Below are positions 1 through 12,057 of a DNA stretch of 64,000 nucleotides, piece by piece. Origin of the DNA: Arenicella xantha. Lineage in GTDB: Bacteria; Pseudomonadota; Gammaproteobacteria; Arenicellales; Arenicellaceae. The stretch is from NCBI RefSeq assembly GCF_003315245.1, contig NZ_QNRT01000005.1:1-64000 (forward strand). Direction: 5' to 3'. Every line of letters begins with the position of its first letter. Positions within the stretch are counted from its first letter, which is position 1. The position numbers were made by a program, and so were the translations under genes. The notes under the pieces are model-generated. The model saw only the letters and a program-made list of their open reading frames with translations, was not told where the DNA came from and made no database searches.

Positions 1-40
1 GGAGCTGCTCAATCTGAGCAGAGAGTTTGTTCTTAGTCAT
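1..40 (-). CDS. N-terminus of an unidentified protein, cut by the window edge
   Basis: Only the first 13 codons are present (MTKNKLSAQIEQL), reading leftward out of the window. An AAGG element lies about 8 nt before the ATG, and a 6-bp inverted repeat (CTTAAC at 50-55, GTTAAG at 63-68) lies just upstream and could be an operator. The peptide looks like the start of a helical or coiled-coil protein. The family cannot be told from 13 residues. Confidence 0.45.
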   Translation of the reverse strand, partial: MTKNKLSAQIEQL

Positions 41-174
41 AGTATCTACCTTAACAAGTTGCGTTAAGCAGATACACAGTTCAGTTTACAGTCTCCCTCT
101 TAATTTGATCATTCATAAATACACAACTTATCAACATCACTATCTTTATTAAAATATAGATAAATGTGTAAAAA

Positions 175-204
175 AGGTCGCAGGTTCAGGTCCTGCCACC
201 GTAT
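175..204 (+). other. tRNA 3'-end fragment, possible attachment site
   Basis: The sequence has the geometry of the 3' part of a tRNA: a 5-nt variable loop (AGGTC, 175-179), a perfect 5-bp T stem (GCAGG 180-184 with CCTGC 192-196), a 7-nt loop starting TTC, seven acceptor-strand bases (197-203) and a discriminator base. Loop position 58 is G instead of the usual A. No D arm, anticodon arm or 5' acceptor strand is found upstream, so this is not a working tRNA. Isolated tRNA 3' ends usually mark integrated elements, and an integrase gene lies 5.2 kb downstream. I did not find a second copy in the window. Confidence 0.5.
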
Positions 205-289
205 GATTTTTTTTACGGCTCTGGTGGTTTATAGTATTGATCTGATTGGGATCTTTTCTCATATCTGTTTATATCGCGGGAGGTTGTTT

Positions 290-469
290 ATGTTTGGACT
301 CGGTAAAAGAAGAGAACATGTAGATCTTATTGGCGTGAAAATTGATATTACTGTAAATCTCGTTAACGTAGAGAGTGTTGTGTCCGAGCGTAAGGCGCCA
401 ACAATAGACTGCTTGGCGAATGATTGGTTGCCCGAAAATAGCGCTTCTTACCGAAATGGAGTGACTTGA
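290..469 (+). CDS. small hypothetical protein, 59 aa
   Basis: This 59-codon frame starts at an ATG with a good ribosome site (GGGAGG, 6 nt spacing). That is why I prefer it to a longer reading starting at 164, which would run through the tRNA fragment. The product is soluble with a basic N-terminus (GLGKRREH) and no motif I recognise. It ends just before a second short open frame (483-731) that lacks a start, so both may be remnants of one locus. Confidence 0.4.
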   Translation: MFGLGKRREHVDLIGVKIDITVNLVNVESVVSERKAPTIDCLANDWLPENSASYRNGVT

Positions 470-482
470 TTAGCTGCAGTAA

Positions 483-731
483 ACGGGGAGAGTTTTTTTT
501 ATAACCGATAAAAATGGTCGTTTCCGTATAGATACTCCTATCGGGCTCCACCTTCCTAAGCACTTAACAGGTAAGCTGGTATTAACGGCGATACAAGGCT
601 TATTATTACTTGAGTACGATGGTTGTGTTATCGCTGATATCCCTATCGAATACTGGAACAAAATAGTTTCAAGGACGAAGCTACTGAGTTCATACGATCC
701 CCCGCGAGAATTTACGTGGCAAAAGGTTTGA
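483..731 (+). pseudogene. open frame without a usable start codon, probably a gene remnant
   Basis: An 83-codon open frame on the plus strand reads like real protein: after a run of eight T it continues ITDKNGRFRIDTP and later VLTAIQGLLLLEYDG and IPIEYW. Between the preceding in-frame stop (480-482) and this conserved-looking part there is no ATG, GTG or TTG. The pattern GRFRI, then VLT, a central Gly-rich turn and a late Trp is faintly like MraZ/AbrB-type beta folds, but this is weak. Possible explanations are a damaged 5' end, a slip at the T run or a rare start codon. The opposite strand is also open (470-781), but its translation is less protein-like. Confidence 0.3.
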
Positions 732-771
732 GGACAATTATCCAGTGTTCTATTATGGAGAGGAAGTATCA

Positions 772-876
772 GTGCAGACAATAAAGACTCTTCGACCAGA
801 TTCGTACTCTTTGGAGAACTCGGTTGTTAAAGTGAACTGCAAGCCGGTTCTGAGAGTTTCTGAACTTTTAGGCTAG
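772..876 (+). CDS. very small hypothetical protein, 34 aa
   Basis: A GTG-started 34-codon frame (VQTIKTLRPDSYSLENSV...) is preceded by GGAGAGGAAG with about 5 nt spacing, which makes translation plausible. It follows the open frame ending at 731 by 40 nt. No family is recognised. It may be a small orphan gene or the tail of a decayed one. Confidence 0.3.
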   Translation: MQTIKTLRPDSYSLENSVVKVNCKPVLRVSELLG

Positions 877-945
877 CTTTTAGCAGCCATATTCAAATTA
901 GTTTGTACTTCAGCGTATAGAAAATGCTAAGCAATGGAGAAGATT

Positions 946-1077
946 ATGGGAATTAAACCAGGACCCAAAAGAACGGCTAAATCAACCGGAAAACCAGATA
1001 GGCGGCAACGCGATAATAAAAAAACTCCGGGAAATACACCGTCACTTAAGCCCCACAAGCACAAGAAAGGCGATTAA
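946..1077 (+). CDS. small, very basic hypothetical protein, 43 aa
   Basis: The frame starts at the ATG at 946, which has GGAGA five bases upstream. An ATG at 934 in the same frame has no such site. The 43-residue product (MGIKPGPKRTAKSTGKP...) is rich in Lys, Arg and Pro, lacks hydrophobic segments and ends in a His/Lys-rich tail (PHKHKKGD). It is probably unstructured and may bind nucleic acid. No homologous family comes to mind. Confidence 0.45.
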   Translation: MGIKPGPKRTAKSTGKPDRRQRDNKKTPGNTPSLKPHKHKKGD

Positions 1078-1162
1078 TAAAAGAAGTTTTGCTCTGCGAA
1101 TTGGCTACGGACGGCTTTATATCCGTTTGGGGTCTCGCTGTTATAAATGAATTGGTGATGTA

Positions 1163-1564
1163 TTGGATACAATTGTTAAAGTTGCACTGGGTGTTTTTTT
1201 GGGGGCTTTACTCATATTTCTGTTTCGCATCGCCTATATCCACTATGTTTTTAAGGAGGTCACAGAGATGATCTCTGAAACAAACCAAGCCATCCTTCAA
1301 AGCGGTCGAGATAGCATCAAGCTTCAGAGAGAAAAAATAGAGGCTCAAAGGCAGGCGGTGATTTTACAAAATAAAATAGAAGAAAGAAAAGTCGAGCTTA
1401 AACGAGCAAATCGGGAGAATAAGGAAAAAGCTTGGAGAGCGTATTTCAAAACCCCAGAGGATTGTCTTTCCTACAAATCCGACAAGCACATGGTTGAATG
1501 CGCTAACATGAGAATTCGAGCAAAAAAGGAGTTTGAGGAAAAATGGTTAGAGAACCAACAATAA
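1163..1564 (+). CDS. membrane-anchored coiled-coil hypothetical protein
   Basis: The protein has 133 aa and starts at TTG, with GGTGAT just upstream. One N-terminal membrane helix (about residues 6-27, VALGVFLGALLIFLF) is followed by a long charged helix rich in Glu, Lys, Arg and Gln (about 35-100), which should form a coiled coil. A short C-terminal part has two Cys (EDCLSY and VECANM). No catalytic motif is visible. It belongs to the run of orphan genes in the accessory region, and its function is unknown. Confidence 0.6.
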   Translation: MDTIVKVALGVFLGALLIFLFRIAYIHYVFKEVTEMISETNQAILQSGRDSIKLQREKIEAQRQAVILQNKIEERKVELKRANRENKEKAWRAYFKTPEDCLSYKSDKHMVECANMRIRAKKEFEEKWLENQQ

Positions 1565-1634
1565 ATATACACAACAAGTTAAAGGCTTTTTCTGTTCGAC
1601 TATCGCGTTTCCACAACTTTATCAGGAGAAATAC

Positions 1635-2129
1635 ATGAAACCCGGAATTCACCCATTACAGTCCGAGTCATTTGACCTGATCGAGAAGCTGTACTCCCAA
1701 CTAGCACTTCCAATGACCAAGGCAATGATTGACGTGCAAAGGCGATATTACCCTTCGATTGGAAGCATTCTCAAGACTCTTGATTATTACTCAGAGCACG
1801 AGATCGTAATCGCATTTAGAGAAGAGCATAACTTACTAATAACTAAGACTCTGGAAGAGCTTAAAAAAGATGAAAGCAAGGCGAACGAAGATCCAGCTGA
1901 TGGTGTTTTTGGAGATATGTTCGCTGATATATTTGATCATGTAAATGTTGCGAAAATACTAAAAACGTTCTCGATTCAAGAGATCGAGAACGTTTTTAGT
2001 GAATCGCTTAGCAAACTATCTGGGGTGTCTTTAAAGGTTGGTATAATTCAAATTCAAAATTTCGACGATTACTGTTCTGGAGAAGTTGAGGTATCACTAA
2101 AGGTAGTTGAAGGTGAAAAGAAAAGTTAA
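1635..2129 (+). CDS. hypothetical soluble protein, 164 aa
   Basis: The start is well supported by AGGAGAA five to six bases before the ATG. The product is acidic and mostly helical in its N-terminal two thirds, ending in a short beta-rich part (SLKVGIIQIQNF...VEVSLKVVEG). No signal peptide or known motif is visible. Codons for residues 109-122 lie inside a perfect 17-bp inverted repeat (1959-1999), which is unusual in a coding sequence. Its C-terminus runs into a short motif repeated after the next gene. Confidence 0.6.
   Translation: MKPGIHPLQSESFDLIEKLYSQLALPMTKAMIDVQRRYYPSIGSILKTLDYYSEHEIVIAFREEHNLLITKTLEELKKDESKANEDPADGVFGDMFADIFDHVNVAKILKTFSIQEIENVFSESLSKLSGVSLKVGIIQIQNFDDYCSGEVEVSLKVVEGEKKS
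1959..1999. repeat. perfect 17-bp inverted repeat inside a coding sequence
   Basis: The arm CTAAAAACGTTCTCGAT (1959-1975) and its exact reverse complement (1983-1999) are separated by 7 nt. The right arm ends in five T followed by AG. The transcript would form a strong hairpin within the 1635-2129 gene. It might be an attenuator, a protein-binding site or a recombination scar. Confidence 0.8.
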
Positions 2130-2133
2130 GTTT

Positions 2134-2156
2134 AAAAACTGCCAGCCACTTCGTTC
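2134..2156 (+). repeat. motif following a stop codon, copy 1
   Basis: A 23-nt segment with the core AACTGCCA begins 4 nt after the stop codon ending at 2129. It matches the copy at 2683-2705 at 19 of 23 positions. GC-rich partial palindromes follow both copies. Confidence 0.5.
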
Positions 2157-2208
2157 CCTCGAACGCGCAGAAAACGCGCTCCTGTTTGTAAGGCGTTCAC
2201 CGTCTTTG

Positions 2209-2682
2209 GTGAGAAATTTATTTCTATTCTTTTTCATTCCCACAATTCTTGCATGTGCTCCTGCTGGGCCACCACAATTCCCAACTGATTCTGAAATGAT
2301 CAATCATTTAGAGAGTAATTTCTCTGAGTTCGAAAATTTACTTTTAATGTTTGAAAAGGACGGTATGAGTGTAGTTCATCCGAGCTGGGTACAACCAAAA
2401 AACAAAATATCTGAGGCCCGATTGGCTGAATATAGAGATATATTTGTGCGTTTAGAGTTAGACGGAGGTCTACGGAGTTGGGGTGGTGAATCTGTCAGGT
2501 TAATTAGTCACTCATCAGGGTTTGTTTTTGGCGGTTCAGAAAAAGGCTTCATGTATAAGCCTGAAAACCCCAGTCCATTGTACGAGTCATTGGACATACC
2601 TCCAGAGGACCTTTTATCTAATGTTAGTGCGTATCGTTACGTAAAAAAGAATTGGTATCTTGAATATAGATGGGATGATTAA
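2209..2682 (+). CDS. putative lipoprotein of unknown function
   Basis: The frame is open from about 2107, but starting at the GTG at 2209 gives an ideal short lipoprotein signal: MRNLFLFFFIPTILAC, with lipobox ILAC and Cys16. Upstream starts would give an improbable 37-residue charged leader. The mature part (about 140 aa) is soluble, with several Trp and Tyr and motifs such as GGLRSWGGESVRLI and YRYVKKNWYLEYRW. No family is recognised. An outer-membrane or periplasmic lipid-anchored location is inferred from the signal. The start has no strong ribosome site, so an upstream TTG (2107) or GTG (2113) cannot be excluded. Confidence 0.55.
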   Translation: MRNLFLFFFIPTILACAPAGPPQFPTDSEMINHLESNFSEFENLLLMFEKDGMSVVHPSWVQPKNKISEARLAEYRDIFVRLELDGGLRSWGGESVRLISHSSGFVFGGSEKGFMYKPENPSPLYESLDIPPEDLLSNVSAYRYVKKNWYLEYRWDD

Positions 2683-2705
2683 AAGAACTGCCATTCACTG
2701 CGTTC
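2683..2705 (+). repeat. motif following a stop codon, copy 2
   Basis: This is the second copy of the AACTGCCA motif seen at 2134, again immediately after the stop codon of a gene. A GC-rich stretch with partial dyad symmetry follows. The repetition at two consecutive gene ends suggests a shared 3' element or a boundary between cassettes. Confidence 0.5.
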
Positions 2706-3090
2706 ATACGCGCACGCAAAAGGTGCGGCTAAAGACTCAATTGTCTCCTTAGGGCAAATTAGCTGATGCACGTTTCTAGCTAATAGCATTGCAGCCCCAT
2801 CCAGCGAGCATGTGTCGCACGATATAAACAGTACACCCTGAATGTCCGTCAGGGTCAATCTGTCACTTGAATTCCATTTAGTTCGAGCCACGCCCAGTTG
2901 TGAAGGCACGACCCAAAAACGCTCTTGCTAGACATTATTCTACTTAATAGAAACAGATCTAGATCATTTTTGAATATTGCACCTACTAATTGAAAATTGA
3001 CATTTGTATACTGAAAAAGGGGGGCAAGATGGGAATTCACACTGTTCATCTTGGCCATCAGCCTTAATCATTGGAAATGGAGAACAGGAA
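2706..3090. other. intergenic stretch without a convincing gene
   Basis: No plus-strand gene is supported in these 385 bases. A minus-strand frame (2679-2909) exists but has no ribosome site and reads through the repeated motif. A 7-bp hairpin (ACCCTGA 2835-2841 with TCAGGGT 2849-2855) is visible. The promoter of the Trypco2-protease pair should lie in the AT-rich part around 2940-3020. Confidence 0.4.
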
Positions 3091-3654
3091 ATGAATCTCA
3101 TTAAGTTAAGTACACTAGTTTTCGCGATCATGTTATCAGCCAGCACCAAAGCAAGTGATGCACAGGAAAGCGAAATAGAAATAGCCAGCGTCGTTGAACA
3201 AATTCAGAACGGAATAGATATTGCAAAAAAAGGATTGGCAGCAGACAGTCTCCCTAACCTACAGTCCGTCACACTGAACTTGAACACGGCTGTCAAACGC
3301 GATGGTGGTCCAAAGTTTAAATTCTTGATATTTTCTTTCGGGAAAAAATGGACTAGCGAAGCCTCTCAGACTACTACGATTACATTGGTTCCTAAAGTGC
3401 CAAGAGTCACTCCAACCAGTGCGGAGGAGATCTCTGATAGTATTGCTAAAATGATTATTGCCGCAGCTGACGGTGTATCAAAAGCCAGCGCACACGCCAG
3501 CGTGCCATTGGAGTTAGGTAGCTTATCAATTCAACAGAAATTTATAGTAAAGAATGAGACCTCTGGAGGTTTCTCTATCGAGCTCCTATCCATAGAGGCA
3601 AGCGGCAGTTACTCTGAAGCAAACGTTCAAACGATGACTATCACATTCAAATAG
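3091..3654 (+). CDS. secreted Trypco2-like protein, partner of the adjacent protease
   Basis: The start is chosen at 3091 because it has GGAG eight bases upstream and gives a clean signal peptide (MNLIKLSTLVFAIMLSASTKAS). The next roughly 80 residues (IEIASVVEQIQNGIDIAKKGL, then LQSVTLNLNTAVKRDGG, then ITLVPK) match my memory of the trypsin-co-occurring domain Trypco2: a helix, then beta strands, then a charged turn and a KLTLTP-like strand. A second region (about 110-187) repeats a similar helix-plus-strands order and may be a diverged second copy. The trypsin-like gene begins 19 nt downstream, so the two are probably cotranscribed. Trypco domains are known from conflict-system loci, where they sit beside proteases, usually inside the cell. 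Export here is unusual. The role is inferred; it may regulate or present substrate to the protease. Confidence 0.6.
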   Translation: MNLIKLSTLVFAIMLSASTKASDAQESEIEIASVVEQIQNGIDIAKKGLAADSLPNLQSVTLNLNTAVKRDGGPKFKFLIFSFGKKWTSEASQTTTITLVPKVPRVTPTSAEEISDSIAKMIIAAADGVSKASAHASVPLELGSLSIQQKFIVKNETSGGFSIELLSIEASGSYSEANVQTMTITFK

Positions 3655-3673
3655 TCAACCGTCAGAGCAGATC

Positions 3674-5125
3674 ATGCTTCACAAAAGCATTAGGTTGGTT
3701 TTTTTGGGGTTAAGTTCTATGTGTAGCGTCGCATTGGCTCAGTTGCCGGGTGTGTCTCCTGACATTGGGGCTCAATGCGATGTTACTAACGTATCCTTAG
3801 ATAACCCGATCACCGAGAGAGCTGCTAGAACAAAGTACGACAGGTCAGTTGTGAAACTCAATGTCTATCTCGAAGATGGGCGTCTCCGCTCAGGCACTGC
3901 TTTTTTGATAGACATTGAGAGAGGATTGTTTTTGACCGCACTCCACGTTGTTGATGGTAACAACTTAAAAATCAGGGGGTACCGACCTGAATCAAAGGAT
4001 GTTATAGATAGGTTTGAGTTCATACTCGTTGCGGGAGTAAACCATGGGTATTCTGAGAGGGACCAACATGAAAATAGTGTAGCCCCCATCGATGCTGCGA
4101 TACTGGAAATCACAGACAAGAGCCTCATGGAACTCGCATTTCGCCGGTCAAATGAGTTCGATCTTAATTTCAAGCTCGAAGACAGCGGTAAGCCCGTTAT
4201 TACTCTTGGTTACCCAGGTAGCAATATCACCTTAACAGGTGAAGACTATGAATCCTGGCCAGGGAATATCGGAGCGCGAACACGAGAAAAATTCGCATCT
4301 AGCTACCAAGTGTATTACAAATTAAACCGAGCAACTCAGGCAGGTGAAAGTGGCGGCCCAATGTTGAATCAGGTGGGAAAAGTCATAGGTATTGGTTCGA
4401 GCACTTCGAACCTCGCGCGGGGCTACAGTTTTTTTACCACATCTGCTGACTTGTTCCAGATGATTACCGAATTACCCGTAAGTCGTAAAGCGCAAGAAAT
4501 AGAAAAGTTACTAAGGGATAAATCAGTCTCTAGCGGTCAACTATTAAGTGAACTAAAGGATCGTGGTTCAAACAGTTTTAGGAACATCGACATATTTGAA
4601 TGGGCGACAAAAGTTGCACCATCAAACGAATACTCAGATATTGACATATCGAAGAGATGCATACTCCTTGCTCTTATGGAGCGACGAGATATGTGGTCTG
4701 AGAGGAGGATGTATGTGTATATGGACAAATTCTTGGACAAGCCGCTTTTAGCTGGACATCTAAATCGAAGTAGGGAGAAAGCATTGATAGAGGGAGATAT
4801 ACATTCAGCCCAAATTTACTCAGAGCTTAGTAAGAATTTAAGCGCCATAACTGACAAGTGCAGATGGTTTACTGATTGCAGAAGCCATCTAAACGCGGGA
4901 AAACTCATGTCAGTCTTTGCTCAACGAGAACTTGAGATAATGATCGAAGATACTGTGGATGTAGCAATGGAAGCAGCAACAGCTGAAGCTGAAGTAATGG
5001 ATGAAGCAATGGAAGCAGCAGCTGAAGCAATGGTGGATGAAGCAATGGAAGCAGCTGCTGAAGCAATGGATGCAGAGGATGCTGAAGTGATACTGCTTGA
5101 AGAATTAGAGGAAAATCAATTCTAG
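3674..5125 (+). CDS. secreted trypsin-like serine protease with acidic repeat tail
   Basis: The protein has 483 aa. A signal peptide (residues 1-22, cleavage after ALA) is followed by a chymotrypsin-fold domain (about 55-270) with a full triad: His91 in LTALHVV, Asp140 in PIDAAIL and Ser226 in GESGGP. A helical region without known motifs (about 275-430) follows, containing two Cys-rich spots (DKCRWFTDCRSH). The C-terminal 55 residues are low-complexity Ala/Glu/Met with a 12-residue unit repeated in tandem. The gene lies 19 nt after the Trypco2-like gene. The protease presumably acts in the periplasm or outside the cell, and its substrate is unknown. The trypsin assignment is firm; the tail may be a linker, a binding surface or a recent repeat expansion. 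Confidence 0.85.
   Translation: MLHKSIRLVFLGLSSMCSVALAQLPGVSPDIGAQCDVTNVSLDNPITERAARTKYDRSVVKLNVYLEDGRLRSGTAFLIDIERGLFLTALHVVDGNNLKIRGYRPESKDVIDRFEFILVAGVNHGYSERDQHENSVAPIDAAILEITDKSLMELAFRRSNEFDLNFKLEDSGKPVITLGYPGSNITLTGEDYESWPGNIGARTREKFASSYQVYYKLNRATQAGESGGPMLNQVGKVIGIGSSTSNLARGYSFFTTSADLFQMITELPVSRKAQEIEKLLRDKSVSSGQLLSELKDRGSNSFRNIDIFEWATKVAPSNEYSDIDISKRCILLALMERRDMWSERRMYVYMDKFLDKPLLAGHLNRSREKALIEGDIHSAQIYSELSKNLSAITDKCRWFTDCRSHLNAGKLMSVFAQRELEIMIEDTVDVAMEAATAEAEVMDEAMEAAAEAMVDEAMEAAAEAMDAEDAEVILLEELEENQF
5000..5071 (+). repeat. 36-bp tandem repeat coding for the protease tail
   Basis: Two 36-bp units (5000-5035 and 5036-5071) are nearly identical and encode DEAMEAAAEAM followed by V or D. 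Weaker copies flank them from about 4958. The repeat keeps the reading frame, so unit number could change by slippage without breaking the gene. Confidence 0.8.
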
Positions 5126-5358
5126 CTAGAAATTATCTATTAAACGTAAAAAAAATAAGATTGGAAAATGTGAGTGATCACGCTAGTAGAGATATCTATA
5201 CACTTTCAAAGTCAGATTTAAATTGTGAATGTTCGAATTTCACCTGATACTTCAAAAGTAGAGATTCGATAAAATCTGACAATGGCTGCAAGATGCAACT
5301 TTCTGCCACACGACTCCATTTAATAGTCATGCAGTGGCTAAGCCGCGGTAGCCTGAAG

Positions 5359-5380
5359 GTCCCCTTCTGGGGGCTTTTTT
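5359..5380 (+). terminator. rho-independent terminator
   Basis: A 6-bp stem (GTCCCC 5359-5364 with GGGGGC 5369-5374, including one T-G pair), a TTCT loop and six T form a standard terminator on the plus strand. It follows the protease gene by 233 nt and precedes the integrase. Upstream, 5126-5358 holds no gene that I can support. Confidence 0.75.
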
Positions 5381-5414
5381 ATGACGTTTATGCACGACTT
5401 TGTATAGTCTTTCC

Positions 5415-6086
5415 ATGCGTGCCATAATTAGTCCCATGAATGCCCCTGTCGCGCCCGAGATGCGCATTTTTTCACCAAGCGGTGAGCCGCTTTATTTGAA
5501 CGCCGATGAGCGCGAACGTTTTTTAGCGGCCGTGCGTAAAGACACCGATCGCAACGCGGTGATCTTCGGTACCCTACTTCATTATACCGGTGCGCGTCCG
5601 ACTGAGCTTCGTGAGCTTACCGTCGACCGGGTAAACGTCGACGAGTCGATCATCAACTTGCGCACCATCAAAAAACGTCGTGTGGATAAAAAAGGCAATC
5701 TTAAGCAAGCCCAGTTTAGATCCATTCCGATCCCTGAGGAAGTGATGAACCTGGTCGTGTTGGCGTTCGATATACTCGCCAAGCAGAAAAAAGGCCGGAA
5801 CGCCCTACTCTGGCCGTCCGACGATAATCCTAAAATACCTGTCAATGAATCCACCGTCTATCGGTGGGTTAAGCGCAACATGGTGTCAGCCGGCATTACC
5901 GGCAAGAAAGCGACCTCTAAAGGGCTCCGGCATGGGTTTGGGGTTCATATGGTGTTGAATGGCGTGCCACTGGTTATGATTAAGGATTTAATGGGCCACA
6001 CGTCCACTCAGACGACCGAGATATATCTGCAGGTCATGGGCGGTGAGAAAAAAGAGATGGTGCTTAATACATGGAAGAATAATTAG
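5415..6086 (+). CDS. short tyrosine recombinase (integrase), catalytic domain only
   Basis: The product has 223 aa from the ATG at 5415; ATGs at 5436 and 5460 are alternatives, and none has a ribosome site. A TATAGT -10-like box lies only 7 nt before 5415, so a leaderless start is possible. It carries the phage-integrase catalytic core: the first Arg in TGARPTEL, the second in KGLRHGFG, then GHTST and the Tyr nucleophile in TTEIYLQ. The His of the usual HxxR motif is Lys here. The N-terminal SAM-like DNA-binding domain of full-length integrases is missing, since the protein is about 100 residues short. It may be a small integrase type or a truncated one. A decayed partial copy lies at 6735-6955. 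Confidence 0.85.
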   Translation: MRAIISPMNAPVAPEMRIFSPSGEPLYLNADERERFLAAVRKDTDRNAVIFGTLLHYTGARPTELRELTVDRVNVDESIINLRTIKKRRVDKKGNLKQAQFRSIPIPEEVMNLVVLAFDILAKQKKGRNALLWPSDDNPKIPVNESTVYRWVKRNMVSAGITGKKATSKGLRHGFGVHMVLNGVPLVMIKDLMGHTSTQTTEIYLQVMGGEKKEMVLNTWKNN

Positions 6087-6095
6087 CAAACAATC

Positions 6096-6112
6096 TTTAC
6101 GCAGTACGTAAA
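6096..6112. promoter_or_regulatory. candidate operator of the higBA operon
   Basis: The inverted repeat TTTACG-N5-CGTAAA lies 18 nt before the higB start and just upstream of a TATACT -10-like box (6124-6129). Its place and symmetry suit autoregulation by the HigA antitoxin. This is inferred from position only. Confidence 0.5.
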
Positions 6113-6129
6113 GCGTATTAAGCTATACT

Positions 6130-6408
6130 ATGATCAAAAGCTTTGCGAACAAAGATGCCAAACTTCTTTTCGAGCGTCGGCGTTCAAAGCGGTTTGCCAA
6201 CATTGAGCGAGCCGCGCTTAGAAAGCTTGTGATGTTGAATGCAGCCACTGAGCTGTGTGATTTAGAAGTGCCTCCTGGGAACCGTCTTGAGCCATTAAGA
6301 GGTGATCGTTTGGGGCAGCACTCTATCCGTATCAACCGCCAATGGCGGATTTGTTTTAACTGGAATAACGGAGATGTCGAAAATGTCGAAATCTGTGACT
6401 ACCATTAA
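6130..6408 (+). CDS. higB: HigB-type toxin, RelE/ParE superfamily
   Basis: The product has 92 aa with the hallmarks of the short HigB/GraT toxin family: an N-terminal IKSFANKDAKLLFE, the central LNAA.ELCDLEVPPGNRLEPL, GQHSIRINRQWRICF and a final EICDYH. Family members are mRNA-cutting, ribosome-dependent RNases or related poisons. The gene overlaps higA by 26 nt with the toxin first, the usual higBA order. The -10-like TATACT sits directly before the ATG and there is no ribosome site, so a leaderless message is possible. Confidence 0.93.
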   Translation: MIKSFANKDAKLLFERRRSKRFANIERAALRKLVMLNAATELCDLEVPPGNRLEPLRGDRLGQHSIRINRQWRICFNWNNGDVENVEICDYH

Positions 6409-6685
6409 GCCCATTCATCCGGGTGAAATTCTGTATGAAGAATTTTTAGAGCCTCTGGGGCTCAGTGCTAATAAGTTGGCTAAGCACATCGAGGTGCCGG
6501 CAAATCGAGTGACGGCCATCATTAATGGGCAGCGCGGCATTACCGGTGATACTGCGCTGCGCCTATCGAGTGCGTTTGGAACGACACCTGATTTTTGGCT
6601 TAACTTACAGAGCCACTACGAGCTTGAGTGTGCGAAAGATAGTACAGAGATCCGTTTTGGGGTTATCGATAAGCACGCAGCTTAA
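6383..6685 (+). CDS. higA: HigA antitoxin, XRE-family
   Basis: The product has 100 aa and starts at 6383 inside the end of higB, with GGAG nine bases upstream. It contains the HigA/VapI signature IHPGEILYEEFLEPLGLSANKLA and a helix-turn-helix (about residues 25-60, ending INGQRGITGDTALRL), then FGTTPDFWLNLQ. It should bind and neutralise HigB and repress the operon through the inverted repeat at 6096-6112. Earlier in-frame starts (6302, 6374) have no ribosome site at a proper distance. Confidence 0.93.
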   Translation: MSKSVTTIKPIHPGEILYEEFLEPLGLSANKLAKHIEVPANRVTAIINGQRGITGDTALRLSSAFGTTPDFWLNLQSHYELECAKDSTEIRFGVIDKHAA

Positions 6686-6734
6686 CTCTCCACTTAAAAC
6701 TTCGGTTATAAATGGGGGGATTACAGGGGGCTCA

Positions 6735-6955
6735 GCGCCTACTCTGGCCATTCGAGGATAATCCGAAAATCCTAGTGAATGAATCCACTGTCTATCGAGG
6801 GTTCAAGTGCAACATAGTCGCGCCGGCATCAATGACCTCTAAGGGGCTTCAGCATGGCTTTGGGGTCTGAACGGCGTGCCTCTTTGCCGTCTTCTGGTCA
6901 TGATTAAGGATTTAATGTCCACACGCCCACTCAGACGACAGATTTCATCTTCTAT
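6735..6955 (+). pseudogene. decayed partial copy of the integrase gene
   Basis: This stretch aligns along its length with bases 5801-6030 of the intact integrase, including the segments for LLWPSDDNPKI, NESTVYRWVK, TSKGLRHGFG and MIKDLMGHTSTQTT. Several small deletions and substitutions break the frame. The start and nucleophile regions are lost. It points to a tandem duplication or to two related elements that integrated side by side, with higBA left between them. Confidence 0.8.
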
Positions 6956-6989
6956 GAAGTTACTTAGTTGTTCTCTTGTGTCGCAATTA

Positions 6990-8195
6990 TTATTCTGCTT
7001 TCTCATGGTCAACTATTTCACGTAAGCTTTTTTCAGCCTCATTTAATAGCCGTTTTCCACTTTCTATCTCAGCGATGAATTTTTCAACTGTTGTGATTGA
7101 AAGGCGTTTTGCTTTATTAAAGATGACTGTCAGTCGAGGCAAGGCACTAATTGAATCACGAAATTTTACTTGTGCGTCCTTTGCACTTTCCATATTTTGT
7201 TTAAGATCAGTGACGGTTGTAAGAGCTGACTTGGCTCGCTCGATTGAATTATCATCAGACTCAAAATCAGATAATAGTTGTATTGATTGTATGAATGCAT
7301 TCATGCCGGCATCCATTGCGTTATTAAACAGTGATACTTCAGTAGACACTCTTTCAGAAAAAATATTCATTTCCGCGGCGGAACGGTTCATTTTTTTCCG
7401 TACTAATTGGCGATCAACATTTCCGCTATCGTCTTTTGGTAGTGCATCTATCTCTTCTGTTTGACTAGTTATTTTGGTCGCAAGCTCACTAGTTGCTTCA
7501 GCAATTCGATTGGCTATATCTGTAAGCTCTTTGAATCGCTCTTCTATTATATCTTCTAAATCAAATAGACCTAATTCATCTTCGAATGCGGAATCTTCGT
7601 CATTTGTGTGTTGGGTTTGAGGTGCATTTGTACCCTCATCAGTATTTCGTTTGGTGTGGTTTGCTTGTCCCCATGCTTGCATCTGGCGATTCAGGTGAAG
7701 CCGAATATGTTTTTCAAAGTCATTTAAGCTATTAAATTTCCAGAAAAAACTCCCTTCTTCACCTAAACTATTTCTAAATTCGTTTACTTTAGCCATTTGG
7801 TTGGTGTCTAGCTGGCTAGGCGAAACAGGTTCATCTTTAAAATAAAACATTATTTTGATGCTTTCGCTATCTTCGTCAAACCTTGCTTTAGCACGCTCAA
7901 ACTCTTCTGCCGTGCCCGATTTAGATCGTTTGGTTGGTGTGCCAAATCTGTGCCACATGACGCCTATAAATATATCGATATCATCTGGGAGTTGATTGTT
8001 AATTACATCTTGCGCATCAACACCAATACCTGGATAGGTATAACTTTCCCATCGAACTAGTTCAAACCGCATCCCTCTCTCGCGAGCATGTGTTGAGTTA
8101 ATTTCATGAACCACTTCTTCGATCTTATCTCGCTCACTTGAAACATCAGATGGCGAAGCAATGAATATGCTGATAACTTGTTCTTGTCGAGGCAT
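6990..8195 (-). CDS. DUF4062-domain protein with helical C-terminus
   Basis: The product has 401 aa. The start has AGGA five bases upstream. Residues 7-115 match the DUF4062 family: IFIASPSDVSSERDKIEEVV, a DIDIFIGVMWHRFGTPT core and SGTAEEFERA. The family has a Rossmann-like fold that I recall being grouped with TIR/SEFIR-type domains and found in conflict and signalling proteins. After a polar linker (about 178-205) the rest is helical and acidic, probably a coiled coil, and may sense or oligomerise. No membrane segment is present. The gene lies alone between higBA and vapBC and reads opposite to both. A defence role is suggested by context only. Confidence 0.75.
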   Translation of the reverse strand: MPRQEQVISIFIASPSDVSSERDKIEEVVHEINSTHARERGMRFELVRWESYTYPGIGVDAQDVINNQLPDDIDIFIGVMWHRFGTPTKRSKSGTAEEFERAKARFDEDSESIKIMFYFKDEPVSPSQLDTNQMAKVNEFRNSLGEEGSFFWKFNSLNDFEKHIRLHLNRQMQAWGQANHTKRNTDEGTNAPQTQHTNDEDSAFEDELGLFDLEDIIEERFKELTDIANRIAEATSELATKITSQTEEIDALPKDDSGNVDRQLVRKKMNRSAAEMNIFSERVSTEVSLFNNAMDAGMNAFIQSIQLLSDFESDDNSIERAKSALTTVTDLKQNMESAKDAQVKFRDSISALPRLTVIFNKAKRLSITTVEKFIAEIESGKRLLNEAEKSLREIVDHEKAE

Positions 8196-8359
8196 GATTT
8201 CCTTTAAAAAGTATCCTTAGCTTGTTAAATTAAGTATAGCCAATGAAGTATATACGGTCGCCTATAATTACCCCATTTATACCTTTCTGTATTTCATATG
8301 AAAACCTGTTTGTCACACCGTTAGTCGGAATATGGTTTTTGTGGACGTATTAATTTTAT

Positions 8360-8380
8360 GTATATACAATAGGGATATAC
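8360..8380. promoter_or_regulatory. candidate vapBC operator
   Basis: GTATAT and ATATAC form an inverted repeat with 9 nt between the arms, 20 nt before the vapB start. VapB-family antitoxins bind such AT-rich dyads to repress their own operon. A strong ribosome site (GGGGAGG, 8388-8394) follows. Confidence 0.5.
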
Positions 8381-8399
8381 TTTATATGGGGAGGTTGCT

Positions 8400-8639
8400 A
8401 TGAAGACGACAACCAAAGTGTTTCAATCTAATAAGAGCCAGGCAGTTCGCTTGCCCAAGGCGGTTGCCTTCCCGCCTAATGTGAGCGAGGTATCCATTAC
8501 AACCGTTGGTGTTACCCGTGTTGTTGCACCGGTCAATCAGAGCTGGGACTCATGGTTTGATGCAGTTGCCGTGACCGATGATTTCATGGCCGATCGTAAA
8601 CAGTCCGCGATGCAAACGAGAGAAGCGTTTGATGATTAA
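8400..8639 (+). CDS. vapB: VapB antitoxin, AbrB/SpoVT type
   Basis: The product has 79 aa. The N-terminal half (TTTKVFQSNKSQAVRLPKAVAFP) is a swapped-hairpin AbrB DNA-binding motif and the C-terminal tail (SWDSWFDAVAV...) is the toxin-binding part. GGGGAGG lies 5 nt before the ATG. It overlaps vapC by 8 nt, which indicates translational coupling. Confidence 0.93.
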   Translation: MKTTTKVFQSNKSQAVRLPKAVAFPPNVSEVSITTVGVTRVVAPVNQSWDSWFDAVAVTDDFMADRKQSAMQTREAFDD

Positions 8640-9036
8640 ATACTTACTCGACACGGACATGTCGATTTACACCATCAAACGCAAACCACATGAGGTTCGG
8701 CGCATGTTTAATGTCCATGCTGGAGCGATGGCCATTTCGACGGTAACCCTAGGTGAGCTTCTGTTTGGCGCCGAGAACTCAAGCAATCCGCCTAAGAACA
8801 TAGAAATCGTGGATGGGTTTGCGAGCCGATTGCATGTGCTGGATTACGATGAAGAAGCCGCCAAACAATTTGCCCAGCTAAAGGCTGAGCTCAAAGATCA
8901 AATGATTGGGGCTTACGACATCATGATTGCCGCGCATGCGCGCAGTCGAGGGTTTATCCTAGTAACCAACAACACAAAGGAATTTGAGCGCGTACAGGGG
9001 CTTAGAATAGAGTCCTGGGTGCACGAAAATAGCTGA
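8632..9036 (+). CDS. vapC: VapC toxin, PIN-domain ribonuclease
   Basis: The product has 134 aa from the ATG overlapping the vapB end. The PIN active-site acids are visible: Asp7 in LLDTD, Glu in TLGELLFG and Asp in AYDIMIAAHA. The fourth position is the TNNTKEF motif common to this subgroup. VapC enzymes cut specific RNAs, often tRNAs, when VapB is lost. This pair ends the accessory region; the next gene reads in the opposite direction. Confidence 0.95.
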   Translation: MIKYLLDTDMSIYTIKRKPHEVRRMFNVHAGAMAISTVTLGELLFGAENSSNPPKNIEIVDGFASRLHVLDYDEEAAKQFAQLKAELKDQMIGAYDIMIAAHARSRGFILVTNNTKEFERVQGLRIESWVHENS

Positions 9037-9040
9037 GATG

Positions 9041-9072
9041 AAAAAAAAGCCGCGACGTTGTTACGCCGCGGC
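9041..9072 (-). terminator. terminator of the crystallin-like gene
   Basis: Read on the minus strand, GCCGCG and CGCGGC form a stem around a 12-nt loop, followed by eight T. It lies 29 nt past the end of the 9101-9850 gene. There is no T run on the plus strand, so it does not serve vapBC as a standard terminator. Confidence 0.85.
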
Positions 9073-9100
9073 CTGTTCTGCTTGGAAATCTTAGCTATGT

Positions 9101-9850
9101 TTATCGGCCAACACTTAGGCGAACATATTTTCGATACCAGCTGTTCTTTAACTCATCTTGCTGTTCATTTGACGCGAAGCGATAGCGTTTGCCGTCAAGC
9201 TCTACAATAACGTTTGTTGCGCGCTCGGTTTTGCCGATTTCCATTGTCAAGCTACCGTTATGGCAGATTCGTGAGCTAGCGGCTTTACGGTCAAATCGAT
9301 ATAGATCGCCCTTGCCGTGGAAGCGTAAGCTGCCGTTACCACCGTTGGTATAAGCCTTAAAGGTAAAACATTCGCTTTGAATTCTTCGGCTTGGTTCGTT
9401 GCTTGTGGTAACAGTGTCGTTACGTGGTTGATTATTGCGTTGCTGATTGTCGCGTCGACGGTCGTTTCGATCTCCGCGGTTATTGTTGTTATCGGCTAAC
9501 ACTCGCAGTGAGCTGACAGTATTGTCCCATTGGCGATCAAAACACGTTATATCGCGATCTATAGTGGCATAAGCACCACCGTAATTGTCGTCTTCGTAAA
9601 TCACTACAGTTAGGCCTGGCGGTACTTTGATCGACGACATGCGGTCGTTAGCAAAGCGAATGGTCTTAAGGCTGCGGTATTCGCCGATGGGTACGTTTCT
9701 GGCTGTGCCGTTAAAATTACAGTCTTCGTAAACAGTAACGAAGGCATTCTGTGCGCCATAGTTGCTTTGCGCTGTGGCGGTTGTGGAGAGGCCTAGCAGC
9801 GCAAACGCGATGCCTAAGCCAATCAGAGAATTATTCCATAAATTTTTCAT
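9101..9850 (-). CDS. secreted beta/gamma-crystallin-like protein
   Basis: The product has 249 aa. A signal peptide (about residues 1-28, ending TATA|QS) is followed by a crystallin-type module (about 35-118) with two Greek-key motifs: VTVYEDCNFNG...NDRMSSIKVPPG, then VVIYEDDNYGG...NTVSSLRV. An Asn/Arg/Asp/Gln-rich linker (about 120-150) leads to a C-terminal domain with two Cys (SECFTFKAY, SRICHNGS). Similar modules bind calcium or inhibit proteases. A periplasmic or extracellular site is inferred. It stands alone with its own terminator. Confidence 0.75.
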   Translation of the reverse strand: MKNLWNNSLIGLGIAFALLGLSTTATAQSNYGAQNAFVTVYEDCNFNGTARNVPIGEYRSLKTIRFANDRMSSIKVPPGLTVVIYEDDNYGGAYATIDRDITCFDRQWDNTVSSLRVLADNNNNRGDRNDRRRDNQQRNNQPRNDTVTTSNEPSRRIQSECFTFKAYTNGGNGSLRFHGKGDLYRFDRKAASSRICHNGSLTMEIGKTERATNVIVELDGKRYRFASNEQQDELKNSWYRKYVRLSVGR

Positions 9851-10040
9851 AAAACCCCCGTGTGGGTATCAGTTATGTCAGTTGTTGCTAGTGTAAACGA
9901 ACAGTTTAGCAGTTTATATTGCGCCTTTTACATCAAACACGATGATAAACTCACCGTACGAGATCACTATAGCTATGCAAGTATTAACGCAGGCTGAATG
10001 ATCGTAACCTATTGCTTTATTACCAACCTTACGATTGAAT

Positions 10041-11111
10041 ATGAGCCGTTTTTGGTCAGACATTGTGCACCAGTTGACACCCTATACGCCGGGCGAGCAA
10101 CCGAAAATCGACAACCTAGTTAAACTCAATACTAATGAGAATCCGTATGGGCCGTCGCCTAAAGTAATTGAGGCGATTGCGGCTGCCAACCATGATGGGT
10201 TGCGTAAATACCCAGATCCTAATGCTGGCGAGTTGAAGCAAACTATTGCGAACCACTTTGGGCTTTCGGTCGATAGTGTGTTTGTTGGAAATAGCTCTGA
10301 TGAAGTGCTTGCGCACGTCTTTCGTGGCTTGCTCAAGCAGGATCGACCGTTATTGTTTCCGGATATCACCTATAGCTTTTACCCTGTCTATTGTGCGCTC
10401 TTCGATATTGCGTATCAACAGGTTGCACTGCGTGACGATTTTAGCTTAAACATTGATGATTATAGTGCGGACAATGGCGGCATAATCTTCGCTAATCCAA
10501 ACGCGCCAACCGGTATTGCAGTTCCGCTTGCGGATATAAAGACATTGCTTGAGCGGCATTCATCGTCGGTCATAGTAGTAGATGAGGCGTATGTCGATTT
10601 CGGCGGTGAGAGCGCCGTGAGCCTCATTGTTGATTACCCGAATCTGGTGGTTACTCAAACTTTGTCGAAGTCGCGCGGTTTAGCGGGTTTACGGGTTGGA
10701 TTTGCTTTGGCAAACCCTGAGCTGATAGAAGGCTTAGAGCGCATCAAGAATAGCTTTCATCCATACACATTGGATGCTTTAGCCTTGGCGGGAGCGCAGG
10801 CGGCTTTTTTGGATGTTGACTATTTTGAGCAGAGTCGTCAGAAAGTGATCGATACTCGTGAGCGCACCACGGTTGGCTTGCAGAAGCTCGGCTTTACGGT
10901 ATTGCCATCGTCAGCTAACTTTGTGTTTGCTGCGCATCAAACATCCGATGCTGGCGCTTTGTTCATGAAGTTGCGTGAACGAGGCATTGTGGTGCGGTAC
11001 TTTGATAAAGAACGACTGAGTGATTTTTTGCGGATTTCTATTGGCACCGACACCGAAATGCAACAGCTGCTTAGCGTGCTTGCTGACATCCTAAGCGAGC
11101 CTGCGCAGTAA
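10041..11111 (+). CDS. hisC: histidinol-phosphate aminotransferase
   Basis: The product has 356 aa from the ATG at 10041, preferred over the TTG two codons earlier. It shows the fold-type I aminotransferase pattern: NTNENPYGPSP near the N-terminus, FANPNAPTG, the VVDEAYVDF Asp and the PLP lysine in TLSKSRGLAGLRVGFA. It converts histidinol phosphate and 2-oxoglutarate to imidazole-acetol phosphate and glutamate, or the reverse. It lies apart from, and convergent with, the hisBHAFIE cluster beyond folD. An upstream ribosome site is not obvious. Confidence 0.95.
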   Translation: MSRFWSDIVHQLTPYTPGEQPKIDNLVKLNTNENPYGPSPKVIEAIAAANHDGLRKYPDPNAGELKQTIANHFGLSVDSVFVGNSSDEVLAHVFRGLLKQDRPLLFPDITYSFYPVYCALFDIAYQQVALRDDFSLNIDDYSADNGGIIFANPNAPTGIAVPLADIKTLLERHSSSVIVVDEAYVDFGGESAVSLIVDYPNLVVTQTLSKSRGLAGLRVGFALANPELIEGLERIKNSFHPYTLDALALAGAQAAFLDVDYFEQSRQKVIDTRERTTVGLQKLGFTVLPSSANFVFAAHQTSDAGALFMKLRERGIVVRYFDKERLSDFLRISIGTDTEMQQLLSVLADILSEPAQ

Positions 11112-11131
11112 GCTTGAATCGCTGAGTTAGA

Positions 11132-11153
11132 GAGGCTCTTAATGAAGAGCCTC
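11132..11153. terminator. hairpin between convergent hisC and folD
   Basis: A perfect 9-bp stem (GAGGCTCTT with AAGAGCCTC) and AATG loop sits in the 61-nt gap between the two convergent genes. Neither strand has a T run after it, so it may act as an mRNA 3' end stabiliser or a weak two-way terminator. Confidence 0.5.
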
Positions 11154-11172
11154 GCCAAACAGCTAGTGTGGG

Positions 11173-12057
11173 CTAATGATTATGGATTAAACGAGCCGCT
11201 TTAGCGGTGTTTTTCATCAGCATAGCAACAGTCATTGGGCCGACTCCTCCGGGCACTGGCGTGATGGCTCCAGCGGTGTCTTTAACATCGTCGAAGTCCA
11301 CATCACCAACCAATCGGTAGCCGCGCGAATGGGCTGGGTCTTCAACGCGATTTATACCGACGTCAATAACGGTAGCGCCTTCTTTGACCATTTCTGATGT
11401 TACGAATTCTGGAACGCCGATCGCCGCGATTAAAATATCGGCTTGGCGAGTATAATTGGCTAAATGATCGGTGCCGCTATGGCAGCAAGTTACCGTGCAA
11501 TTAGCTTTTGCGCCTTTTTGTACCAAAATGTTCATCATCGGTTTGCCAACAATATTGCTTCTGCCGATAACCACTGCATGTTTGCCGGACATGCTAATTC
11601 CGCTACGGGTAATTAGTTCGGGAATGCCAGATGGCGTGCAAGGCGTCAAACAGTCGATTCCAATACTCAACTTGCCGACATTTTCAGGATGAAAACCATC
11701 GACATCTTTGGCTGGACTGATGCGTTCTGTTACGCGTTCTTCGTCCATGTGGTGCGGCAGCGGTAATTGCACCAGGATGCCATGTACGGTGTCATCGGCA
11801 TTGAGTCGATCAATTTCGTCCATCAATTCAGCCTCGCTCGCATTGCTTGCCATTTCGATTTTGAGTGACTTTATGCCAGTTTCTTGGCAGGCGCGTACCT
11901 TGCTGCCTACGTAGGCTTTTGATGCTGGGTTTTCACCGACCAAGATCACTACCAAGCATGGCTGAATGCCTTGTTTGACTAGCTCCGCGACTTCAAGCTT
12001 GGCTTCTTGGCGAATTTCTTCGGCAATCTTTTTGCCGTCTATGATTTTTGCAGTCAA
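11173..12057 (-). CDS. folD: bifunctional methylenetetrahydrofolate dehydrogenase/cyclohydrolase
   Basis: The product has 294 aa, a normal length. The family motifs are present: YVGSKVRACQETGI with the catalytic Lys, GILVQLPLP, the NADP-binding VIGRSNIVGKP and PGGVGPMTVAML near the end. It interconverts 5,10-methylene-THF and 10-formyl-THF in the cytoplasm. It begins 13 nt after tatC and may be the last gene of the his-tat transcript, supplying formyl-THF for purine synthesis. Confidence 0.97.
   Translation of the reverse strand: MTAKIIDGKKIAEEIRQEAKLEVAELVKQGIQPCLVVILVGENPASKAYVGSKVRACQETGIKSLKIEMASNASEAELMDEIDRLNADDTVHGILVQLPLPHHMDEERVTERISPAKDVDGFHPENVGKLSIGIDCLTPCTPSGIPELITRSGISMSGKHAVVIGRSNIVGKPMMNILVQKGAKANCTVTCCHSGTDHLANYTRQADILIAAIGVPEFVTSEMVKEGATVIDVGINRVEDPAHSRGYRLVGDVDFDDVKDTAGAITPVPGGVGPMTVAMLMKNTAKAARLIHNH

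Follow-up and report, generated by a model that had tools for sequence, protein, structure and literature searches.

This study concerns two adjacent genes at positions 3,091 to 5,125 of a 64,000-nucleotide stretch of Arenicella xantha DNA (hereafter the window, which forms the beginning of a 316.5-kb contig). The first gene encodes a protein of the Trypco2 family and the second a trypsin-fold serine protease, and both products have N-termini of the export type. The same pair was found in two further lineages: G029, a metagenome-assembled genome (MAG) of the same order, and a plasmid of Tunicatimonas pelagia, a member of the Bacteroidota. Taken together with the profile E-values, this recurrence makes a chance association very unlikely; the Trypco2-protease pair is genuine and rare, and it occurs in more than one phylum. 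We consider it rather probable that the two genes form one exported unit, in which the Trypco2 protein would be the dedicated partner (adaptor or restraint) of an HtrA-like protease, working in the periplasm or outside the cell with no nucleotide-driven switch.

The Trypco2 gene, the protease gene and their relatives

The pair comprises the following features (slashes mark inferred cleavage sites):

3091-3654, + strand: export-type, two-stretch Trypco2 protein, 187 amino acids (PF19631, 63.7 bits; relatives in T. pelagia and G029)
3091-3156, + strand: probable signal peptide of the Trypco2 protein, end approximate (cleavage inferred within TKASDA/Q; hydropathy peak 2.51)
3175-3393, + strand: Trypco2 domain 1 (profile positions 1-78 of 78; E 9.1e-10, 41 bits)
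3478-3651, + strand: Trypco2 domain 2 (profile positions 18-77 of 78; E 3.9e-5, 26.1 bits)
3674-5125, + strand: export-type trypsin-fold serine protease, 483 amino acids (Trypsin_2 and Trypsin in Pfam; HtrA-type PDB matches of a three-row profile)
3674-3739, + strand: probable signal peptide of the protease (inferred cleavage SVALA/Q; layout by eye, hydropathy 2.08)
3893-4393, + strand: protease catalytic domain (Pfam, residues 74-240)
4955-5069, + strand: Ala/Glu/Met-rich acidic tail from an imperfect 36-nt tandem repeat (Tandem Repeats Finder, TRF); the relatives have a longer C-terminal domain there

The Trypco2 gene runs from an ATG at 3091 to a stop at 3654 and the protease gene from an ATG at 3674 to a stop at 5125. 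An initial annotation, made from the sequence alone, had these coordinates and the 19 nt gap right. The first product matches PF19631 (Trypco2) in Pfam with an E-value of 1.9e-17 and 63.7 bits, the curated cut-off being 24.2 bits. The likeness to Trypco2 proposed initially is thus upheld; the outcome named as refuting it, no significant match to a Trypco domain, did not occur. A single domain had been noted, and here the family stands while the profile gives two stretches instead of one. Comparison of domain 1 with a profile of 11 canonical Trypco2 proteins gave a probability of 95.0 and an E-value of 3.7e-8. When the whole A. xantha genome (4.4 Mb) was searched with PF19631, both window stretches scored above the cut-off and no further Trypco2 gene appeared; Trypco1 (PF19493) had no match in this genome. 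The window Trypco2 protein found no match in PADLOC (E up to 0.1) or in PHROGs, and the canonical Trypco2 profile found nothing convincing in the PDB (best E 0.011 over 22 positions).

The halves of the Trypco2 proteins were also compared directly. The second half of the window protein aligns with those of T. pelagia and of a third relative, from genome G348, above all 300 shuffles. Among nine comparisons of second with first halves, only that of the window protein with itself exceeded every shuffle (45 versus a maximum of 44); in the other eight, from 2 to 205 of the 300 shuffles scored equally high. Internal duplication is therefore not supported by this route, most comparisons falling within the shuffled controls, and the case for two domains in the window protein depends on the Pfam profile.

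The second product matches Trypsin_2 (E 7e-9, 37 bits) and Trypsin (E 3.9e-5, 24 bits), both above the Pfam cut-offs. Its catalytic triad is complete, as first annotated, with H91 in LTALHV (codon 3944-3946), D140 in IDAAIL (4091-4093) and S226 in GESGGP (4349-4351), and is intact in all three proteases of the pair. PADLOC returned RT-Protease_XI (39 and 38 bits), LmuA (29.1 bits) and PDC-M35A (20.8 bits), each over the stretch containing the catalytic domain, and PHROGs two weak matches. The tail repeat (period 36, 3.0 copies, 86% matches) is in frame and imperfect, which lends no support to a phase-variable tail.

In the G029 contig (CAMYKK010000127, uncultured gammaproteobacterium, 8.65 kb) and on the T. 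pelagia plasmid (NZ_CP120686, locus L043, complete, 9,458 bp), both products again have export-type N-termini and the genes lie 8 nt apart. The G029 Trypco2 gene (locus L011, 7697-8310, - strand) is split over two overlapping frames. The first contains the signal peptide and scores 24.5 bits, just above the cut-off; the second contains the second domain and scores 16.4 bits, below it. Either a frameshift or faulty assembly of the MAG could account for the split. The protease start lies 8 nt past the Trypco2 gene, and the contig ends about 340 nt before the pair. The T. pelagia Trypco2 protein, already annotated as "trypco2 family protein", shows 30% identity over 99% of the window query and contains two stretches (60.3 bits). 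Its protease neighbor is annotated from a TTG at 7953 that omits the signal peptide. This start seems too late; an upstream ATG at 7845 includes the signal peptide (7845-9419) and, taken as the start, leaves 8 nt between the genes.

Searches for further instances covered plasmids, phages, viral contigs and genome contigs. Neither window protein matched beyond the T. pelagia plasmid in 72,556 plasmid records, and neither had a match in 50,697 phage records (tblastn). Viral contigs gave 84 and 230 pattern-matching stretches, none encoding a relative, and a phage origin of the pair was set aside on these results. The pattern scan of genome contigs yielded 162 stretches and a single relative, the G029 contig.

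Export was judged from a plain hydropathy scheme of our own and from the layout of n-, h- and c-regions read by eye, instead of with SignalP. By this measure, both window proteins have Sec-type n-, h- and c-regions and look exported, in agreement with the signal peptides initially assigned to them. Hydropathy peaks of five putatively exported Trypco2 proteins (window, first piece of G029, T. pelagia, genome G776 and B. vietnamiensis) range from 2.42 to 2.72, and those of 18 others are at or below 1.90. A sixth such protein, that of G348, was left out of the scoring, its lipobox-like N-terminus being read by eye. Hydropathy separates the proteases poorly: the exported ones score 2.08, 2.34 and 2.30, and 10 VMAP-type trypsins score up to 2.06 (one reaches this value). 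The window protease is consequently called exported from its visually read layout and because the other two proteases repeat it, the cleavage layouts reading SVALA/QLPG (window), NINA/QNIC (G029) and FAVEG/QIPRLC (T. pelagia). The cysteine content of the exported proteases would suit an oxidizing compartment, and a disulfide is possible. C329 of the window protein represents the one cysteine aligned by MAFFT in all three. In each mature protease a further cysteine lies no more than about 13 residues from the inferred cleavage site (window C35, G029 C25, T. pelagia C26); these residues are not superposed by MAFFT.

Distribution and affinities of the two families

The census of Trypco2 genes used overlapping samples spanning the order, class and phylum of A. 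xantha, the order of G776, the class of G487 and the order of G396. PF19631 matches occurred in 2 of 109 genomes of the own order, 7 of 369 in the class sample and 13 of 398 in the phylum sample, as well as in 6 of 250 (G776 order sample), 7 of 48 (G487 class) and 1 of 3 (G396 order). The count leaves out four matches. Those in G725 (20.8 bits) and G415 (22.6 bits) fall below the cut-off; those in G933 and G984 exceed it only together with their neighbors and lie opposite Peptidase_M1-domain and LptD-domain genes, in antisense orientation. This left 21 distinct Trypco2 genes above the cut-off. Eleven are of the cytoplasmic type with an adjacent trypsin-profile match, nine of them also with a MoxR match in the stretch searched, and six are of the cytoplasmic type with no adjacent trypsin. 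Two (window and G029) are of the exported type next to an exported protease, one (G776) is exported without such a neighbor, and one (G539) is a fragment. The T. pelagia pair, a B. vietnamiensis plasmid relative of G776 and G348 stand outside this count. The initial annotation had named cytoplasmic homologs beside unrelated genes as a finding that would speak against it. Neither of the other two pairs is such a case; the wider family answers to it in part, given that whole cytoplasmic-type proteins make up 17 of the 21 and 6 of these have no trypsin beside them. For one of the six, that of G396, the opposite strand carries an HtrA-type gene with PDZ domains at a distance of 1.2 kb. Cytoplasmic-type Trypco2 genes with no trypsin-profile match beside them were seen at L016 8043-8657, L038 8098-8541 and L049 7898-8359; in L016 and L038 the domain is followed by a Gly-rich stretch, and the three proteins possibly form a separate branch of the family.

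Profiles of the exported proteins have few matches. In the class sample, the exported-protein profile matched 2 of 369 genomes, the own genome and G348, where the match is a lipoprotein-like protein of 188 amino acids with one PF19631 stretch of 22.1 bits (below the cut-off). A four-row version matched only the own genome among 341 phylum genomes. In the own order, a three-row profile of the full-length protease reached 655 and 835 bits in A. xantha and G029, with no other genome above 39.6 bits; since both proteases are rows of the profile, the informative part is the score gap to the other genomes. These two are the same 2 of 109 genomes that have Trypco2. Matches elsewhere were confined to the catalytic part among the rows listed. 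At E up to 0.001 the profile matched 106 of the 109 genomes, as expected for HtrA-type enzymes.

Against the PDB, the three-row protease profile matched HtrA-type structures (best 60 of 96 matches). A tree of 24 catalytic domains places the exported and HtrA-type domains apart from the VMAP trypsins with support of 99/99, on long branches that meet. The grouping is suggestive: the exported catalytic domain would belong with HtrA-type enzymes, not with the VMAP trypsins found beside cytoplasmic Trypco2 proteins, and descent from the latter is not favored by the tree, although the meeting of long branches limits this reading. The initial annotation spoke of a known pairing moved out of the cytoplasm. 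As worded, this fits poorly with such a grouping, which suggests that the exported pair may be a second Trypco2-protease pairing rather than the export of the old one.

Genomic setting

The pair lies 3.1 kb from the contig start. GC content ranges from 0.39 to 0.49 up to 9 kb and from 0.44 to 0.52 at 10 to 20 kb, lower near the pair but overlapping. Downstream lie the following genes:

5400-6086, + strand: tyrosine recombinase/integrase, short form, 228 amino acids (PF00589, 81.1 bits)
6130-6685, + strand: HigB-HigA toxin-antitoxin pair (PF05015, 62.8 bits; TIGR02607, 111.6 bits)
6990-8195, - strand: DUF4062 protein, 401 amino acids, candidate antiphage gene (PF13271, 33 bits; PADLOC PDC-S60, 179.5 bits, residues 7-182)
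8578-9036, + strand: VapC-type toxin (NF010285, 164.1 bits)

A 2026 preprint describes DUF4062 proteins as TIR-like NADases and reports an antiphage system of this family, Swarozyc (PMC13174449). The location within an island, as initially annotated, agrees with these neighbors: the pair sits in an island-like stretch with integrase, HigBA, DUF4062 (Swarozyc-type) and VapC genes. Three stretches of the integrase gene (5804-6019) recur just behind HigBA (6738-6942) with 81-96% identity over 24-81 nt, as if an older copy had been left by an earlier insertion. Upstream of the pair, a perfect 18-nt inverted repeat with a 7-nt loop (1958-2000) lies inside a frame whose product has no Pfam match (1635-2129). 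The product of the next frame (2107-2682, + strand) has no Pfam match above the cut-off and would have a lipobox-like PTILAC if translation started later than at the first start codon.

MoxR and VMAP-trypsin profiles had no match in window positions 1-12000, in the G029 contig or in the whole T. pelagia plasmid (9.46 kb); the first AAA_5 match on the window's contig is at 39,992. A Pfam scan of eight neighbors (1163-9036) found no vWA domain, the contig end cutting off the left side. For the same eight neighbors no reverse transcriptase or other part of a diversity-generating retroelement (DGR) was reported. Near the G029 pair are frames that resemble cytochrome and two-component genes (by reading, with no domain search). 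On the T. pelagia plasmid, the next two genes upstream encode a SieB-family protein (95.4 bits) and a protein that reads as membrane-bound.

Possible role and comparison with known systems

The pair is most likely an ATP-independent, envelope-acting version of the Trypco2-protease partnership. That the two genes act as a unit is supported by a gene order and close spacing that recur in three replicons from two phyla. In such a unit, the Trypco2 protein would bind the adjacent protease in the periplasm and either keep it inactive or dock its substrate. An envelope event such as phage entry, attack by a rival or damage might then free the protease, and the use would be conflict rather than housekeeping. 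The periplasm has no ATP. A MoxR switch would thus be useless there, which fits the absence of MoxR beside the pair. To our knowledge, no biochemical role has been assigned to Trypco2.

The initial proposal of a role in defense, competition or surveillance has circumstantial support from context, namely the integrase, HigBA, DUF4062 and VapC genes in the window and the SieB-family gene in T. pelagia. Defense is plausible because of the window setting; housekeeping proteolysis is possible too. A more specific proposal is that the soluble two-domain Trypco2 protein holds the exported protease in check and detects invaders or rivals from outside ahead of their entry into the cytoplasm, as an ATP-independent envelope switch of which the Trypco2 lipoproteins described below would be a second branch. 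We regard this version as quite unlikely.

Several observations weigh against a single exported unit. The searches turned up the pair just three times. Against the profile of 11 canonical Trypco2 proteins, the window protein reaches only 18.8 bits and the first piece of G029 13.2. In the tree, the three exported catalytic domains do not form one group, one origin still being possible. The C-terminal regions of the G029 and T. pelagia proteases are homologous (E 2e-27), but the window protease matches this region over about 50 residues only, followed by the Ala/Glu/Met-rich tail. The match scores 53 with T. pelagia (3 of 300 shuffles as high) and 40 with G029 (18 of 300), so that membership of all three proteases in one family along their whole length is less certain. 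Single-chain AlphaFold models reached a mean pLDDT (predicted local distance difference test) of 32.7 for each protein, from 3 and 2 aligned rows; such models are too poor for a fold search, and contact and mechanism are inferred. Finally, the stretches searched around the exported Trypco2 genes of G776, B. vietnamiensis plasmid pBVIE01 and G348 contain no trypsin-type gene.

The strongest alternative, though an unlikely one, is a quality-control unit of the envelope, in which an accessory HtrA/DegP-like protease and its small periplasmic regulator deal with damaged envelope proteins and, though located on an island, have no part in conflict. The catalytic domain is indeed nearest to HtrA/DegP/MarP-type proteases, no defense gene was seen to be common to the three loci, and the G029 pair lies near the cytochrome-like and two-component-like frames. 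Such a function is harder to reconcile with the accessory, mobile pattern of occurrence (2 of 109 order genomes, a small plasmid in another phylum, toxin-antitoxin and DUF4062 neighbors) and with the protease itself, in which Pfam finds no PDZ domain whereas the same library reveals PDZ in the HtrA-like protein of G396.

The proteins that lack a trypsin-type neighbor raise another alternative, which we consider improbable: that the exported two-domain Trypco2 protein is an independent envelope module and its protease neighbor a loose or occasional one. Half of the six exported Trypco2 proteins would fit this description. On pBVIE01, a two-stretch Trypco2 lipoprotein, 64.6% identical to that of G776, is encoded 1.3 kb from an opposite-strand gene for a different sort of peptidase, Peptidase_A4 (97.8 bits; L053 5974-6921 and 8176-9246). 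However, the three proteins with no trypsin-type neighbor are all lipoprotein-like (two being close relatives), whereas the three with one are of the soluble type and keep the same order and short gaps in two phyla; G348, moreover, is known from an 11.5-kb contig only, which was the stretch searched. This partition of soluble type with protease and lipoprotein type without a trypsin-type gene nearby is drawn from six sequences and does not amount to a rule. Very improbable is a role in interbacterial competition, with the secreted protease as weapon and Trypco2 as the immunity protein that shields the producer: both proteins look exported, the small partner gene comes first and the setting is mobile, but Pfam and NCBIfam report no secretion-system or polymorphic-toxin domain for the protease, and no switch of C-terminus is seen, the G029 and T. 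pelagia proteases aligning over 88% of the G029 protein.

The reading of the pair as one exported unit invites comparison with four kinds of system. In the MoxR-vWA-VMAP ternary conflict systems described in eLife in 2020, a Trypco2-trypsin pair occurs; Trypco2 was named from its trypsin-type peptidase neighbors, and according to the authors most such systems show no secretion features for their primary effectors (PMC7159879). The window resembles that pair in having a PF19631 gene closely followed by a gene for a trypsin-fold protease. It differs in that the Trypco2 protein is two-domain and export-type, the protease is export-type and groups with HtrA, and neither a MoxR gene nor a VMAP-trypsin-type protease gene is adjacent.

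With the HtrA/Do family (DegP, DegQ, DegS, MarP), the window protease shares the trypsin-fold domain, the export-type N-terminus and the triad, and its best PDB matches are of HtrA type. Unlike these enzymes, it stays far under the NCBIfam cut-offs (11.9-30.8 bits versus 250 to 650), has no Pfam PDZ domain, possesses a C-terminal region of its own and is encoded beside a Trypco2 gene. The lipoprotein-like Trypco2 proteins resemble that of the window in their export-type N-termini, in the two stretches of G776 and pBVIE01 and in the second half of G348; a lipobox (by eye in G348) in place of the soluble-type signal peptide and the lack of a trypsin-type gene nearby set them apart. Work published in PNAS in 2024 reports Trypco2 near DGR loci and treats it as the adaptor domain in systems whose effectors are of trypsin type, an association similar to that seen here, and no export is described in the available part of that work (PMC10907252).

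No exported Trypco2 pair is described in the literature searched; the relevant papers deal with conflict systems taken to act inside cells. The exported form would extend a conflict-type Trypco2 partnership to the envelope and, having two genes and no adjacent MoxR or VMAP parts, would offer the simplest setting for the effect of Trypco2 on a protease. Trypco2-trypsin pairs are already known, from inside cells in the literature found; the form seen here looks exported and occurs in two phyla.

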